DNA from: Pseudomonadota bacterium
Lineage (GTDB): Bacteria; Pseudomonadota; Alphaproteobacteria; Rhizobiales; Beijerinckiaceae
DNA: 64,000 nucleotides
NCBI GenBank assembly: GCA_020161975.1
Contig: JAIUNP010000002.1
Location: 1 to 64,000, forward strand
Reading direction: 5' to 3'
Positions within the stretch are counted from its first letter, which is position 1; every line of letters begins with the position of its first letter. This document shows, one piece after another, positions 12,207-18,211 of this stretch. The notes beneath the pieces were generated by a model, which did no database searches, was not told where the DNA came from, and saw only the letters and a list, made by a program, of their open reading frames with translations. The position numbers and the translations under genes are program-made.

Positions 12207-12246
12207 ATCGGATAGCCGCCATGCGTGTCGATTGGGGCTATCCGAT
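12207..12246. repeat. 11-bp inverted repeat after hipA-like gene 1
   Basis: ATCGGATAGCC (12207-12217) and GGCTATCCGAT (12236-12246) form a perfect stem with an 18-bp loop, just downstream of the HipA-like stop and upstream of the terminator at 12256. Possible second terminator arm or processing site. Confidence 0.45.
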
Positions 12247-12255
12247 TAAGGCTCT

Positions 12256-12279
12256 GGCCCCGGTCTTTCAACCGGGGCC
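12256..12279. terminator. Bidirectional terminator hairpin (DUF736 module 1)
   Basis: GGCCCCGGT / ACCGGGGCC with a six-base loop, between the convergent HipA-like gene and DUF736 gene 1. A related hairpin sits at the same place in module 2 (17105-17126). Confidence 0.65.
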
Positions 12280-12292
12280 ATTGCTTTGGCGA

Positions 12293-12616
12293 TCAGTCGC
12301 CGCGGCGGGTGTTGGGGCGTGACCAGATCAGGCTCGAGCCCTCGCCGTCTTCGTCATCGAAGAGGTTGGCATAGATCGGGGCGGCGAAGCTCGGATCGTC
12401 CAGCTTCAGGCCCAAATATTCGCGGCCCTCGTTCGATTTCTTCGTCCAGGCGGCGCCGATCTCCGCGCGGCCGACCAGGACCCGGTGGGAGGGCGCGTTT
12501 TCGCCCGAGGCCCGCAGGTCGGGGACGAGGCGCACGCCCTTGGCCTGCAGGCTGAGGGTGAAGATTTCGCCGGTGTAGTCACTGCCGGTCTTCTTGAAGG
12601 TGCCGATGGTTGCCAT
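12293..12616 (-). CDS. DUF736 family protein, copy 1
   Basis: 107 aa starting MATIGTFKKTGSDYTGEIFT at ATG 12616, with CGGAG 9-13 bases upstream. It carries the DUF736 pattern: GEIFTLSLQAKGVRLVPD, a central RVLVGRAEIGAAW, and SNEGREYLGLKLDDPSFAAP. It is predicted to be an all-beta small protein. These genes are common on alphaproteobacterial plasmids; function unknown. It differs from copy 2 at only a few residues (for example SDYTGE versus SEYTGE, GEGSSL versus GEGHSL), showing recent duplication or conversion. Confidence 0.85.
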   Translation of the reverse strand: MATIGTFKKTGSDYTGEIFTLSLQAKGVRLVPDLRASGENAPSHRVLVGRAEIGAAWTKKSNEGREYLGLKLDDPSFAAPIYANLFDDEDGEGSSLIWSRPNTRRGD

Positions 12617-13394
12617 GTTCTTTCTCCGTTTTGCTCTGTTTCGGGCCCGCGTCCTTGCGGCCTCGATGGCGATCGACAGCCCGGAGGCGACCACTGGCGC
12701 ACCCCCCTCTTTGGGGGCCTGACAGCACAGGAGGAACTTTCTTGCCGTGCGAGGAATGACGGCATCGCCGACAGGGGAAGAAAGTTGTGACGACGCTGTT
12801 GCGCCGAAGCGGTCGAGGCGAAGACGTCCTTCGGGCAGATCAGCCCATCACCAGAGGCCGTTGGACGCGGGCTGGGACAGAAGAAACACGGAGATCAAGG
12901 CGACCCTGAAGGCCCGTCAGGTAAGACAGGACAGGCACCACCGGCGATGTGAAACACCTTGGCACACCAGGTCAGCTTGCGCCTCCCCCCTGCCCTGCTG
13001 CCTCGCGGCACCCGCCACTCCACCGGGTTCAGGTCTGCCAGCTGTAGGCAGTGAAAAGGACGAACATCGAACGAGGGACGTGACCAGGCAGAGAAGCAGG
13101 CCCATCCGGGCTGACGCCGCCTGAGTCAGACTGCCAACCTCTTATCGAAAGGACGGGGCGGCCAATGCCCCTGTCTCCGCCCTAGTTCCCGCCGCTTCGA
13201 TGATCACTCGGCAAAGGCCCGTCGAAACGATGTGGAGGCGATGTTCGTCCAAATCGCAAGATACCTTCGGGGCACAGTTGTACGGCCTGCCCAGACTCTC
13301 CTTTATCAATGATCATTCCGGGCCAGACCGGAAACCATCGCAATCCAACGGGTTTCAGGATGACAGCCAAGCGCAGCCCGACTAGCCTCGTCCC
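12617..13394 (-). ncRNA. Conserved structured leader of DUF736 copy 1 (candidate RNA)
   Basis: No gene seen. Compared with the copy-2 leader, two stems keep pairing while bases change: CCCCC/GGGGG (12703-12717) versus CCCCG/CGGGG (17548-17561), and CGGC/GCCG (12760-12770) versus CGGTG/CACCG (17604-17617). A longer stem AACTTTCTT/AAGAAAGTT encloses the second hairpin (12735-12743 with 12778-12786). This supports a folded RNA or a cruciform. The bases 13229-13394 before the next gene show nothing specific. Confidence 0.5.
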
Positions 13395-14222
13395 ATGAGT
13401 GCAGACGATTGGACCGATCTTGAAAACGATGCCTGCGTTGCGAGTTACTTCGCGATGCTCGGGCAGGAATTGGCAGGCGAGGCATACAACAAGGCGGCGC
13501 AGAACCGGCTTTTGCAGGAACAGACGGGCCGCAGCCGGGGTTCAATCGAATTCAAACTCTGCAACATCTCAGCCGCGTTCCGTGGGTTTGGCCTGCCCGC
13601 GATCAGGGGCTATCAACCACGCTTTAACTTCCAGATGGCGCTGGCTGTGGCCGTGTCACGCTGGCTGGCCGGACACCCTGAGTGGGAGCCGTCGTTGATT
13701 AGGACCCACTCCAGCGCGATGGCTGAAGCCGCGCCCCTCTTCATCGGGACTGCCCCTACTCTTCGCAATTTGCCGCCACCCGAACTCGACCAGATGCAAG
13801 CAGTTGCCCGCCGCTTCGACGTTGCCGCCCGGGACGAGCGCAATCGCACCCTGGGTCGCGCTGGAGAAGAGCGTGTCTTTCATCATGAGCGCCAAACGCT
13901 GCGTCACCACGGCCGGGACGATCTGGCACGTCGTGTCCGCTGGGTTTCGCGCGAGGATGGCGATGGAGCAGGCTATGACATCGCCAGCTTCAGCCATGAC
14001 GGGCGTGACCGTCTGATCGAGGTCAAAACAACCAACGGCTGGGACCGTACTCCGTTCCACATTTCGCGCAACGAGCTTGCCGTGGCAGAGGAGCGCCGTC
14101 AGGATTGGTATCTCTTCCGTCTGTACGATTTCGCGCGGACCCCGCAGGCATTTGAACTGCGACCGCCACTTGATGCCCATGTTTCTCTGACCGCCACACA
14201 GTTTCAGGCGAGCTTCCAATGA
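13395..14222 (+). CDS. DUF3883-like predicted restriction-type nuclease
   Basis: 275 aa. The N-terminal half (1-110) is a helical domain beginning MSADDWTDLENDACVASYFA, similar to modules found in HNH/restriction-associated proteins. The C-terminal half (about 150-245) has E158-E159, GYDIASF (D195), RLIEVKTT (E209-x-K211) and TPFHISRNE. That is the DUF3883 pattern, with a PD-(D/E)XK-like D...ExK arrangement, so nuclease activity is predicted. The stop overlaps the next gene's ATG by four bases. The pair could be a defence or DNA-processing unit; this is inference. Confidence 0.75.
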   Translation: MSADDWTDLENDACVASYFAMLGQELAGEAYNKAAQNRLLQEQTGRSRGSIEFKLCNISAAFRGFGLPAIRGYQPRFNFQMALAVAVSRWLAGHPEWEPSLIRTHSSAMAEAAPLFIGTAPTLRNLPPPELDQMQAVARRFDVAARDERNRTLGRAGEERVFHHERQTLRHHGRDDLARRVRWVSREDGDGAGYDIASFSHDGRDRLIEVKTTNGWDRTPFHISRNELAVAEERRQDWYLFRLYDFARTPQAFELRPPLDAHVSLTATQFQASFQ

Positions 14223-15265
14223 TCGGTAATCGCAGATTCCGTCGCACCATCGGCATCGACTATTCAGGGGCGGAAACCGCCGAGGCCAGCCTGAAAGGGC
14301 TGCGCGTCTATCAGACTTTGGGCGACAGCGCCGCCGAAGAGGTATTGCCGCCCGCCGGCCCCAAGAAATACTGGACAAGGCATAGCCTCACCGATTGGCT
14401 GATCGACACCCTGGATGGATCGGTGCCGACAGTTGTCGGCATTGATCACGGCTTTTCGTTTCCCATACGCTACTTCGAGCGGCATGGCCTTGAGCCCGAT
14501 TGGCCGAATTTCCTCGACGATTTCTGTGCGCACTGGCCGACAGATGGCAAGCACACCTATGTCGATTTCGTGCGCGACGGGTCAGTTGGAAATGGCGCGG
14601 CGCGGCAAGGGGAGAGGCATTGGCGCCGGCTGACGGAGGAGGCTGCCGGATCGGCAAAGTCAGTTTTCCATTTCGACGTTCAGGGATCGGTCGCCAAATC
14701 AACCCATGCCGGCATCCCATGGCTGCGCAAAATTCGACAGGCTCGCCCGCAGATCCATTTCTGGCCTTTTGATGGTTGGGAACCTGCTCAGGACGCCTCA
14801 GTGATCCTCGAGGCCTATCCGAGGCTGTGGAGCAGCCTCTATGGCAGCGAGGCCAGAACTCAGGATCAGCACGATGCCTATGCAATCGCGCGCTGGCTTC
14901 AGGAGGCCGCTATCAGCGGTGAAATCAAACAGGCGTTTGCGCCGCCCCAGCCGGAAAGTGTTGCGATGACAGCTCAGGTCGAAGGCTGGATTCTCGGAAC
15001 CACTTGGCCCCCGACGGAAAAGCCCCGGTCCCGCTCAAAGAGTGAAATCCCTCGCAGATCCTCAACCACGGCAACAGGTTACATGAACCGCAATAGTCAG
15101 GAAGTGCTGTCCCGCACCGGACAACCGGGCACTGACCACAACCAGATCGTCTACATCCTGAAATGTCGCCACTGCGCGGCGCGGTACGGTGCGAACGGTT
15201 CAGACGTTTTTCAGCGCCGTTGCCCGGAATGCGGCGATGGAAGGCCCGGAATCCCAACGGGCTGA
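14219..15265 (+). CDS. DUF429-like RNase H-fold protein with C-terminal zinc ribbon
   Basis: 348 aa. The N-terminal domain (about 8-235) shows the DUF429/RNase H-like acidic set: D14 in IGIDYSGAE, D76 in VVGIDHGFSF, E198 in ILEAYPRLW, and D216/D219 in QDQHDAYAIA. A linker of about 70 residues leads to a C-terminal four-cysteine ribbon, C316-x-x-C319 and C335-x-x-C338, around YGANGSDVFQRRCPECG. Predicted metal-dependent nuclease or nucleic-acid binder. It is translationally coupled to the DUF3883-like gene. The two predicted nucleases followed by a hipBA-like pair are unlike any system I can name. Confidence 0.7.
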   Translation: MIGNRRFRRTIGIDYSGAETAEASLKGLRVYQTLGDSAAEEVLPPAGPKKYWTRHSLTDWLIDTLDGSVPTVVGIDHGFSFPIRYFERHGLEPDWPNFLDDFCAHWPTDGKHTYVDFVRDGSVGNGAARQGERHWRRLTEEAAGSAKSVFHFDVQGSVAKSTHAGIPWLRKIRQARPQIHFWPFDGWEPAQDASVILEAYPRLWSSLYGSEARTQDQHDAYAIARWLQEAAISGEIKQAFAPPQPESVAMTAQVEGWILGTTWPPTEKPRSRSKSEIPRRSSTTATGYMNRNSQEVLSRTGQPGTDHNQIVYILKCRHCAARYGANGSDVFQRRCPECGDGRPGIPTG

Positions 15266-15418: not shown

Positions 15419-15685
15419 ATGGACTATCAGTTTGCTATGGAAAAGCCCCTCACCCATTCCATACGTAGCCTCCGGCAGGCGGCAACGGCCCTTCGCGCCC
15501 GCAGGCGTGCCCAGGGGATGACCCAGAAGCAACTCGCCGAAACGACGGGCACTGCCCAATCCACCATCTCGGATATCGAGACCGGCGTCGTTTCGGTCAG
15601 TCTCGACGTCTATTTGCGGCTTCTGGAAGCCCTCGGGGCAGAGCTGACTGTGACCGGGCGAATACTCGATCAGGACATGAACTGA
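15419..15685 (+). CDS. HipB-like XRE antitoxin, pair 2
   Basis: 88 aa. Helix-turn-helix at about 30-75 (RARRRAQGMTQKQLAETTGT, then AQSTISDIETGVVSVSLDV), the classic HipB/Xre form, and a hydrophobic dimerisation tail (LLEALGAELTV). An alternative start at 15437 (MEKPLTHSI) is possible; neither has a clear Shine-Dalgarno. The HipA-like gene starts two bases after its stop. Unrelated in sequence to pair 1. Confidence 0.82.
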   Translation: MDYQFAMEKPLTHSIRSLRQAATALRARRRAQGMTQKQLAETTGTAQSTISDIETGVVSVSLDVYLRLLEALGAELTVTGRILDQDMN

Positions 15686-15686
15686 G

Positions 15687-17012
15687 ATGGCACGCTTGGC
15701 ACGCAGGCGGGCTGGCATCCGGCGTAGCAAGACTGCAGTCTGGTATGAACGGACACGGGTCGGCACGCTGATCAGGGCTACCGATGGCGGCGTTGCCTTT
15801 TCCTACGATCCAGCATGGCTGGCCTTGGACTTGGCTTTCCCCGTCGCCAGTGTGCTGCCGCTGACCCAAGGAGACTGGAAAGGCGATCCGGTGATTGCCG
15901 CTTTCGACAACCTGCTGCCCGATGCCGAAGGAGAGTTGCGCGAAAAGATCGCAGCGCGCGTAGGCGCCGAAGGCAAAGACGTGTTCTCTCTTCTTTCTGC
16001 GCTTGGGCGGGACTGTGTGGGGGCGCTGCAATTCTTGCCCTTGGAGGAAGAACCCGCGGCCCAAGATATGGATTATCGCCAGATTGCCGAAGACGAGATG
16101 GTCGCCGATCTGAAGAACCTTGCGGTAGCGCCCTTGGCGCTCGGGGATGACGAGGATTTCCGGATCTCCATCGCCGGGGCACAGGAAAAAACTGCTTACC
16201 TTAAAATTGGGGGCCTTTGGGCGAAACCACGTGGGATCACGCCAACGAGCCACATCTTCAAGACCCCGATGGGCATCCTGCCCGGCCCTGATGAAATCGA
16301 CATGAGCGATAGCGTCGAGAACGAGCTGTTCTGCATGACTCTGGCCGGTGAGATCGGCTTGCCAGTTGCCACGGTCAGGAAAATCGTCCTGCCCGGACAG
16401 GTCGCACTCGCGGTCGAACGCTTCGACCGGGTCTGGGATCACGAATCCCTGAAGCGCTTGCCGCAGGAAGACATCTGCCAATCGCTGGGTTTCCCCTCGG
16501 CCCGAAAATACCAAAAGGTAGGTGGCCCCGGCATTGGGCAAATCATGGAACTCCTGCGAGAATCTGACGATCCTATCCGGGATCGGGAAACCTTCTTCCG
16601 CGCCCAGATCTTCTACTTCCTGATAGGCGCCTCTGACGGCCATGCCAAGAATTTCAGCCTGCGACTGGGGCGCCGCGGCCGCTTCCGTCTCGCTCCGCTC
16701 TACGACATCCTGAGTGTAGCTCCTGTCGTCCATGCGGGACGCCTTCAGCGAAAACGCTACCGGCTCGCCATGTCGATCGACGGCCATTACGGCATCGACG
16801 AGATCGTGCCGCGCCACTTTGAGGCAGAGGGCAAAGCCAGTGGGCTTCCCAGGAACCGTGCGTTGGAACTTCTCTCGGACATGGCTGACGGCCTCGGTCC
16901 GGCGCTGGAACGGACAAAGCTCAGCCTGGGCGATCAAGTACCGGGCAGCGTCATCGATCCGATCATCATGGATTCAATGGAGCGCGCGGAACAGGTCCGA
17001 AAGGTCTTGTAA
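15687..17012 (+). CDS. HipA-like kinase toxin, pair 2
   Basis: 441 aa, close to the length of E. coli HipA (440). HipA N-terminal domain with FDNLLPDAEGELREKIAAR (73-91). SIAGAQEKTAY (161-171) carries the serine that is autophosphorylated in the E. coli protein (S161 here). Catalytic GASDGHAKNFSL starts at 314, and PLYDILS at 337-343. All key residues are present, so it is predicted active. By family knowledge it phosphorylates an aminoacyl-tRNA synthetase and induces dormancy. It represents the classical HipA branch, in contrast to pair 1. Confidence 0.9.
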   Translation: MARLARRRAGIRRSKTAVWYERTRVGTLIRATDGGVAFSYDPAWLALDLAFPVASVLPLTQGDWKGDPVIAAFDNLLPDAEGELREKIAARVGAEGKDVFSLLSALGRDCVGALQFLPLEEEPAAQDMDYRQIAEDEMVADLKNLAVAPLALGDDEDFRISIAGAQEKTAYLKIGGLWAKPRGITPTSHIFKTPMGILPGPDEIDMSDSVENELFCMTLAGEIGLPVATVRKIVLPGQVALAVERFDRVWDHESLKRLPQEDICQSLGFPSARKYQKVGGPGIGQIMELLRESDDPIRDRETFFRAQIFYFLIGASDGHAKNFSLRLGRRGRFRLAPLYDILSVAPVVHAGRLQRKRYRLAMSIDGHYGIDEIVPRHFEAEGKASGLPRNRALELLSDMADGLGPALERTKLSLGDQVPGSVIDPIIMDSMERAEQVRKVL

Positions 17013-17104
17013 GGCATCGCCAATAGGCTTTTGCCACTTCCTATCTTTCATTGAATGCCGGGTTTTCAACAGATGTTGAAAATCTTGTTCGGGTTGAAGC
17101 CTTA

Positions 17105-17126
17105 GCCCCGGTCATTCGACCGGGGC
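17105..17126. terminator. Terminator hairpin (DUF736 module 2)
   Basis: GCCCCGGTC / GACCGGGGC with a four-base loop between the convergent HipA-like gene 2 and DUF736 gene 2; counterpart of 12256-12279 with changed loop. Confidence 0.6.
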
Positions 17127-17140
17127 CCTTGCTTTGGCGA

Positions 17141-17464
17141 TCAGTCGCCGCGGCGTGTGTTGGGGCGGGACCAGATGAGGGAGTGGCCCTCACCGTCTTC
17201 GTCATCGAAGAGGTTGGCGTAGATCGGGGCGGCAAAGCTCGGATCGTCCAACTTCAGGCCCAGGTATTCGCGGCCCTCGTTCGATTTCTTCGTCCAGGCG
17301 GCGCCGATCTCGGCGCGGCCGACCAGGACCCGGTGGGAAGGGGCGTTCTCGCCCGATGCCCGCAGATCGGGGACGAGGCGCACGCCCTTGGCCTGCAAGC
17401 TGAGAGTGAAGATTTCGCCGGTGTATTCGCTGCCGGTCTTCTTGAAGGTGCCGATGGTCGCCAT
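17141..17464 (-). CDS. DUF736 family protein, copy 2
   Basis: 107 aa, ATG 17464 with CGGAG upstream exactly as in copy 1. The sequence is almost identical to copy 1. Presence of two (and by inference three) nearly identical genes on one replicon suggests dosage, or repeated capture by recombination between modules. Function unknown. Confidence 0.85.
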   Translation of the reverse strand: MATIGTFKKTGSEYTGEIFTLSLQAKGVRLVPDLRASGENAPSHRVLVGRAEIGAAWTKKSNEGREYLGLKLDDPSFAAPIYANLFDDEDGEGHSLIWSRPNTRRGD

Positions 17465-18211
17465 GTTCTTTCTCCGTTTTGCTGCATCTAGCCCGCGTCC
17501 TTGCGGCCTCGATGGCGATCGACAGCCCGGAGGCGACCGCTGGCGCACCCCGTTCACGGGGCCGGACAGCACAGGAGGAACTTTCTTGTCCCGCGAGGAA
17601 TGACGGTGCCCGCACCGGCAGGGGAAGAAAGTTGTGACAACGCTGTTGCGCCGAAGCGGCCGAGGCGAAGACGTCCTTCGGGCAGATCAGCCCATCACCA
17701 GAGGCCGCCCAGACGCGGGCTGGGACAGACAATCCACGGAGATCAAGGCGACCCTGAAGGCCCATCAGGAAAGACAAGTCAGACACCACCGGCGATGAAA
17801 CCACCTCTGGCTACCGATCAGACTAACCTGCGCTTCCCCCCTGCCTTGCTGCCACGCGGCTCCCGCCGGTCCGCCGAGTTCAGGTCTGCCAGCGTGATGG
17901 CAGGCAAAGGACGATTTTCGAACGAGGGCCGCCACTGGGCCAAGATGCTGGTCGATCCATGCTGAGGCTCTACCCCAACCAGCGCAACTCGAAGATCATC
18001 TGACGGCGAGTCCAATGCCCTCACCCCCTGCCCCAATTCCTACCGCTTCAATGGCCGCTTGGCAAAGGTCCGTCGAAACCTGAGCCTTGCCGGGTGTTTG
18101 GCAGACTCCTTCTCCGTCCAGCAAGGCCTGAATACCCCGCATACCCTTGCGGGTGTTTTCAGTCCGGCATGCGGGATAAATTGGTCCCGACCACACAACG
18201 AGGGAAATATC
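17465..18211 (-). ncRNA. Conserved structured leader of DUF736 copy 2 (candidate RNA)
   Basis: No gene seen. It contains the stem AACTTTCTT (17579-17587) / AAGAAAGTT (17625-17633) and the covarying inner hairpins described for copy 1. Right of the repeat, a hairpin CCCGCA/TGCGGG at 18136-18153 followed by TGTTTT looks like a rightward terminator. Confidence 0.5.
18136..18158 (+). terminator. Possible rightward terminator
   Basis: CCCGCA-tacccT-TGCGGG followed by TGTTTT. It precedes the 81-aa gene and may end transcription entering from the left. Confidence 0.4.

Follow-up and report, generated by a model that had tools for sequence, protein, structure and literature searches.

The gene pair and its setting

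The window analysed here is a stretch of 64,000 nucleotides from a Beijerinckiaceae bacterium (contig JAIUNP010000002.1, positions 1 to 64,000 of the forward strand). It contains two open reading frames on the forward strand, joined by ATGA and referred to here as gene 1 and gene 2, which lie together with a HipB-like and HipA-like pair between two direct repeats. The features of the locus are as follows.

12241..13117, no strand: left direct repeat with a DUF736 gene, flanking the cassette and outside the proposed mechanism (repeat comparison and Pfam)
13395..14222, + strand: gene 1, a NOV_C/DUF3883 protein of 275 amino acids (PADLOC PDC-S36), predicted PD-(D/E)xK nuclease (Pfam, PADLOC, invariant residues)
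14219..14222, + strand: ATGA overlap of 4 nt, gene 1 stop and gene 2 start (sequence)
14219..15265, + strand: gene 2, an RNase H-like candidate of 348 amino acids; core at about residues 7-262, then a linker and a C-terminal ribbon
15056..15262, + strand: C-terminal ribbon module of gene 2, about residues 280-348, with Cys 316, 319, 335 and 338
15419..17012, + strand: HipB-like and HipA-like pair, a neighbour inside the two repeats (Pfam HTH_3, HipA_C, Couple_hipA)
17089..17968, no strand: right direct repeat with a second DUF736 gene (repeat comparison and Pfam)

The direct repeats are about 0.88 kb long, have a spacing of about 4848 nucleotides and, across families D1-D6, share 76-97% identity by segment; gene 1, gene 2 and hipBA lie between them as a cassette open to gain or loss by homologous recombination. 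Transposition genes of the Tn7/Tn5053 type (TniA/TniB/TniQ type) lie near several relatives of the pair, and the locus looks like a mobile cassette. AbiEi-like, HipA-like and ParB-like genes are present in the stretch of the window around the pair, and a Pfam scan of ten window proteins around it returned no Hsd genes. The defence-type setting suggested in the preliminary description is supported. The same description had drawn attention to a hipBA-like neighbour; such a pair does follow at 15419-17012, but HipA-like genes occur near only a few gene-2 loci, and this neighbour is outside the conserved unit. Both genes are under purifying selection, with dN well under dS relative to the close relatives L027 and L028 (L numbers denote loci: dN/dS of 0.010/0.104 and 0.018/0.191 for gene 1, and of 0.025/0.088 and 0.023/0.185 for gene 2, respectively).

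The gene 1 protein has an N-terminal helical region, with D195 and E209-x-K211 downstream. Pfam NOV_C (PF13020, DUF3883) matches residues 157-253 (E 3.9e-23; 81.8 bits against a cut-off of 22.1), while the PADLOC model PDC-S36 aligns with residues 1-274 of 275 over profile positions 1-279 of 280 (E 9.8e-124); the PADLOC models PD-T4-1 and TmtA give weaker matches to the C-terminal part. D195, E209 and K211 are invariant in 29/29 aligned homologues, in agreement with the D...E-x-K nuclease residues picked out previously, and gene 1 is predicted to be a PD-(D/E)xK nuclease. Its structure model is poor (pLDDT 57) and Foldseek gave no useful row for it; sequence searches of solved structures returned nothing useful for either gene. 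By profile match, gene 1 is already catalogued by PADLOC as the single-gene phage-defence candidate PDC-S36. The earlier statement that the combination matches no named system thus fails for gene 1 taken alone. Our literature search found no title or abstract opening that describes gene 2 or the gene 1-gene 2 pair; nor did it find a paper naming PDC-S36. Relatives of gene 1 are present in 1207 plasmid records, 1197 of them at below 60% identity, mostly from Escherichia, Klebsiella and Salmonella; in the one plasmid examined (L006) the relative lies between IS26 copies, near resistance genes.

Fold and relationships of the gene 2 protein

No Pfam or PADLOC family matches gene 2, and the one match obtained in NCBIfam, to the unknown-domain fusion PRK14495, was below threshold. 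The acidic RNase H-like set that had been read from the single sequence is strongly conserved: D76, E198, D216, D219 and E255 are found in 59/59 aligned relatives and D14 in 58/59, and in a wider alignment of 21 sequences (A7) D14, D76, E198 and E255 are kept in 21/21, with D219 absent from some distant relatives. In an AlphaFold2 model of the protein (pLDDT 87), D14, D76 and E198 end the strands formed by residues 9-14, 71-76 and 195-198, and D216 and D219 stand at the start of the helix 215-233, a layout that we take to be the pattern of RuvC-side RNase H-like enzymes, with acids closing strands 1 and 4 and placed in the last helix. Structural comparison of this model placed its top 13 rows at Z scores of only 5.5-6.1; these are presumably RuvC/MOC1, Spt6/Tex, Cas12i and TerL chains, all RNase H-like, and Hsp70-type ATPases follow close behind with Z up to 5.5. 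Foldseek gave no row at E <0.09, and the viral fold library none under E 0.01. On the basis of the modelled fold, the strand order and the conserved acids, gene 2 is likely to belong to the RNase H-like superfamily, near RuvC. The earlier view of two predicted metal-dependent nucleases is supported.

The wider gene 2 superfamily is present in 95/385 genomes of the class. In 14/37 of the superfamily loci tested, the upstream flank contains rarA, and because this related family directly follows rarA the superfamily appears tied to DNA processing. The rarA-linked relative is annotated in Sphingomonas and Azospirillum. At two loci (L009:3659-5843 and L185:3658-5906) the RNase H-like relative comes directly after rarA, and the ends of the two genes overlap in both. 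Elsewhere, at L021:1033-2592, precorrin-8X methylmutase (CbiC), a cobalamin enzyme, carries a gene-2-like domain fused at its N terminus. Since D219 is lost in some relatives, and given this one CbiC fusion, not all members of the superfamily need be nucleases.

The preliminary description had named gene 2 a DUF429 protein, a name that we reject. No Pfam match to DUF429 (PF04250) was obtained at E<=1 in 59 members, a PF04250 search of the bacterium's own genome gave no match, and hhalign returned probabilities of 0.26% and 0.42%, in a comparison made weak by the low diversity of the gene-2 alignments. By eye, the order of the motifs GIDxS, GIDxxFSFP, ExYP and DxxDA is alike in the gene 2 and DUF429 alignments, and DUF429 is likely to be a distant cousin of gene 2 at most. 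PMC3985635 places DUF429 in clade D of the RNase H-like fold, with RuvC, and describes its gene context as conserved among closely related taxa, with mobility unlikely; gene 2, in contrast, looks mobile.

Pairing with gene 1 and other partners of gene 2

A scan of species genomes returned 445 relatives of gene 2, from which the best 80 were kept; gene 1 was found in 19 of these 80 loci (tblastn) and was adjacent in 18, a pairing that is over-represented among the 80 because they are the closest relatives. When the best 80 are taken together with the window's own locus and four further loci, both genes are present in 25 loci, being adjacent in 23 and near but not adjacent in two (L053 and L015). 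A 4-nt overlap, ATGA or GTGA, joins the genes in 23/23 adjacent pairs, and the translational coupling noted earlier is supported. In a tree of gene 2 built by a quick method, with long branches flagged, the 23 coupled gene 2s fall in one clade of 31 rows (SH-aLRT 99), with L053 and L015 elsewhere, and this one-clade pairing is kept over a near-saturated synonymous distance. Among 397 genomes of the order, gene 1 (at E<=1e-30) is present in 36, gene 2 with its core (7 of 15 matches below 1e-100) in seven, and both in six; the Fisher p value for co-occurrence is 2.4e-6, or 2.3e-5 leaving out the bacterium's own genome.

The pair that had been put forward as a unit therefore does co-occur, but it is not obligate: gene 1 stands without gene 2 in 30 of the 36 gene-1 genomes of the order, the close relative L026 keeps gene 2 in the absence of gene 1, and relatives of gene 2 without gene 1 occur across several phyla. 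The pairing is real and old. Two findings that the preliminary description had named as counting against its proposal, a lack of co-occurrence elsewhere and catalytic residues that are not conserved in homologues, were not made.

The core of gene 2 retains about 60% identity between Alphaproteobacteria and records titled Syntrophus, Acidobacteriaceae, Verrucomicrobia and Acidimicrobiia, where many of the relatives come from binned metagenomes and single taxon labels may be wrong. The four-Cys ribbon after the linker (Cys 316, 319, 335 and 338), which had been correctly recognised, is an optional tail, found in 27 of the 80 best gene-2 loci, all 27 with CxxC...CPxC and two of them in another frame. 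The ribbon is also found elsewhere without the gene 2 core, in open reading frames of about 65-104 amino acids; unannotated, small, free-standing ribbon frames lie at L008:392-598, on a 4.5-kb Roseomonas plasmid, and at L007:3890-4201, in Methylobacterium.

Restriction genes recur upstream of gene 2. Type I R/M/S genes are present in 22/80 best gene-2 loci, preceding gene 2 on its own strand in 20 of the 22, and in 0/20 control regions (Fisher p 0.005, with 19 controls from the same order and one from the same class, and with profiles built from the gene-2 loci themselves). The gene just before gene 2 encodes HsdR in some loci (L076; L101; L086, at 492 nt; L094 by homology), HsdM (L055, L074, L085 by homology) or HsdS (L068; L082 by homology) in others, and elsewhere Mrr (L073; L105 by homology), NucS_C/DUF5655 (L048; L100 by homology), HNH_2 (L058), PLD (L090; L096 by homology), GmrSD_N (L084), a SLOG protein (L070) or YgjP (L066). 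Partners in L049, L053, L063, L072, L091 and L095 have no Pfam match. The L053 partner shows a weak match to the GIY-YIG enzyme I-TevI (E 0.085), and this match together with the motif suggests a possible GIY-YIG partner in L053 and L102. A search of solved structures gave no relative for the partners in L063, L095 and L072; by eye only, the L095 partner appears PD-(D/E)xK-like, with an ECK motif, and that of L063 TIR- or deoxyribosyltransferase-like. Unrelated neighbours (a transposase, IclR, a beta-lactamase-like gene) lie upstream at several loci, and a recognisable nuclease partner is absent in many of the best 80. In 50/75 loci the end of a gene on the same strand lies no more than 120 nt from gene 2, and stop/start overlap with gene 2 is seen for several partner types. 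Furthermore, a distant gene-2-like domain forms the C-terminal part of a 1157-amino-acid frame (L219:4251-7721, - strand) that carries the helicase-spacer, methyltransferase and recognition domains of MmeI; the MmeI N-terminal nuclease was not detected in this frame, the start of which is close to the contig end.

Of the 80 best loci, 12 have serine recombinases in the vicinity of gene 2. A large serine recombinase begins about 9 nt past the end of gene 2 in L058, L073, L080, L102 and L105, and overlaps it by 9 in L095; this placement hints at a family of integrative elements. The record L187 (MT839953.1), which bears the label Bacteriophage sp., codes for a protein almost the same as that of L009 on a Sphingomonas plasmid, and therefore probably holds bacterial DNA.

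Possible roles and known systems

Our observations on the sequences are of coupling, of conserved acidic sites, of spread over partner types and of a position behind type I genes. From them we infer nucleic-acid cleavage by gene 2 and its substrate, a target shared with gene 1, and anti-phage activity. In the model that we propose, a mobile defence cassette would encode in gene 1 a restriction-type nuclease of the PDC-S36 family, directed against foreign DNA, which it would recognise and cut. Gene 2 would be made from the same message in a matched amount, as a metal-dependent RNase H-fold protein of the RuvC side that acts on the same DNA intermediates as its partner nuclease. It would most likely be a second nuclease that carries the attack further or completes it, for example through nicking or resection of phage DNA that is cut or branched, and its relatives would fill the same part behind many other restriction nucleases. 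This assignment of gene 1 as the cutter, and of gene 2 as an RNase H-fold partner on the same DNA and most likely a second nuclease, is put forward tentatively, at slightly less than even probability. It is favoured by the coupling in 23/23 adjacent pairs, the co-occurrence (p 2.4e-6) and the one-clade pairing; by the type I genes in 22/80 loci, the varied nuclease partners and the MmeI-type fusion; and by the rarA-linked relatives, the RuvC-side structural list and the invariant D14, D76 and E198. It is weakened by the weak fold scores, with Hsp70-type rows close behind, and the CbiC fusion, by the lack of a near/far excess of PADLOC families (below) and the many loci without a recognisable nuclease partner, and by the fact that gene 1 mostly occurs without gene 2.

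The alternative that survives best makes gene 2 a constant sensor or licensing subunit, with an RNase H fold that reads a nucleic-acid structure (branched DNA, an R-loop or a cut end) and activates a swappable effector nuclease encoded just before it. A core about 60% identical across phyla behind an upstream partner that varies between NOV_C, Mrr, NucS-like, HNH, PLD and GmrSD, with a possible GIY-YIG partner in L053/L102, is consistent with such a subunit, as is the stop/start overlap with several partner types. The full acidic set is, however, kept in 58/59 members, which favours catalysis, and in several loci gene 2 directly follows HsdR, HsdS or HsdM with no extra effector; we consider the sensor unlikely. 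Still less probable is a part in protecting or repairing the host, in which gene 2, as a mobile cousin of the rarA-linked protein, would resolve breaks or stalled forks left by the partner nuclease. The distant family beside rarA in 14/37 loci and the position of gene 2 downstream of restriction genes in 20/22 type I loci point in this direction, but the gene 1 family lacks gene 2 in 30/36 genomes, so there it is not required as an antidote, and the same count speaks against a type II toxin-antitoxin pair.

We judge it improbable, to a somewhat greater degree, that gene 2 merely collects in defence islands as an unrelated mobile gene. Several features fit such hitchhiking: serine recombinases near gene 2, several of them 9 nt downstream; TniA/TniB/TniQ-type transposition genes near several pairs; and L026, which keeps gene 2 without gene 1. 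PADLOC families, moreover, are in no excess near gene 2: 112 nearest neighbours matched 115 of them, against 245 for 112 far genes (>5.5 kb, same loci). The near/far test took 112 of 150 nearest neighbours, with those in loci coupled to gene 1, both from L042 and one from L030 left out, against 112 of 120 sampled far genes; because the islands are dense, its result is compatible with hitchhiking. Against a passenger stand the invariable 4-nt overlap of adjacent pairs, the same-strand downstream position in 20/22 type I loci, the one-clade pairing over a near-saturated synonymous distance, and the MmeI fusion. That gene 2 is either an ATPase with the RNase H fold or an inactive scaffold is very improbable: the Hsp70-type rows (Z up to 5.5) in the same structural list, the CbiC fusion and the loss of D219 in some relatives would allow it, but the best structural rows are RuvC-side nucleases or their relatives and the D-D-E plus DxxD pattern lies at the ends of the expected strands. 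A role in phage counter-defence is disfavoured because only 4 relatives were found in viral contigs, with 1 in phage records, the L187 protein.

In our best reading, then, gene 2 would be an RNase H-fold accessory widely shared among DNA-restriction nucleases, coupled here to PDC-S36. A broader proposal, which we regard as possible but doubtful, is that gene 2 is the founding member of a defence module that spans phyla and has not been described before, in which a constant RNase H-fold protein, the last gene of the operon, would be combined with exchangeable DNA-cutting effectors (DUF3883/PDC-S36, Mrr, NucS-like, HNH, PLD, GmrSD and probably GIY-YIG), added to type I operons or joined in one protein with MmeI-type methylases. 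Should gene 2 be a general restriction partner, a family missed by the Pfam and PADLOC models used would act in many restriction systems; its partner swapping would offer a ready route to further restriction systems, and the role of the RNase H-like relatives beside rarA would become testable. If gene 2 only hitchhikes, this is simply a PDC-S36 locus of the usual kind that carries a passenger.

Comparison with catalogued systems highlights what is shared and what is particular to this locus. The PDC-S36 model covers the whole length of gene 1, but in PADLOC it is a single-gene label, as we take 'PDC-S' to signify, and gene 1 is here joined to gene 2. A close arrangement for gene 2 is the type I restriction-modification operon with an extra 3' gene, which resembles the 22/80 gene-2 loci with type I genes; the ten proteins scanned around the pair in the window include no Hsd protein. 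DUF3883/NOV_C (PF13020) shares its domain and its D...ExK residues with gene 1. In PMC3710099, DUF3883 is called a novel restriction endonuclease domain and is reported to be fused to an SNF2 helicase in restriction-modification operons, whereas gene 1 is a small separate protein. PMC3710099 also describes the gene neighbourhoods of NamA, an RNase H-fold protein, and HEPN; these share with the reading proposed for gene 2 the idea of an RNase H-fold nuclease with a second nuclease in defence loci. As described there, NamA differs from gene 2 in its HEPN partner and in a domain with two large inserts.
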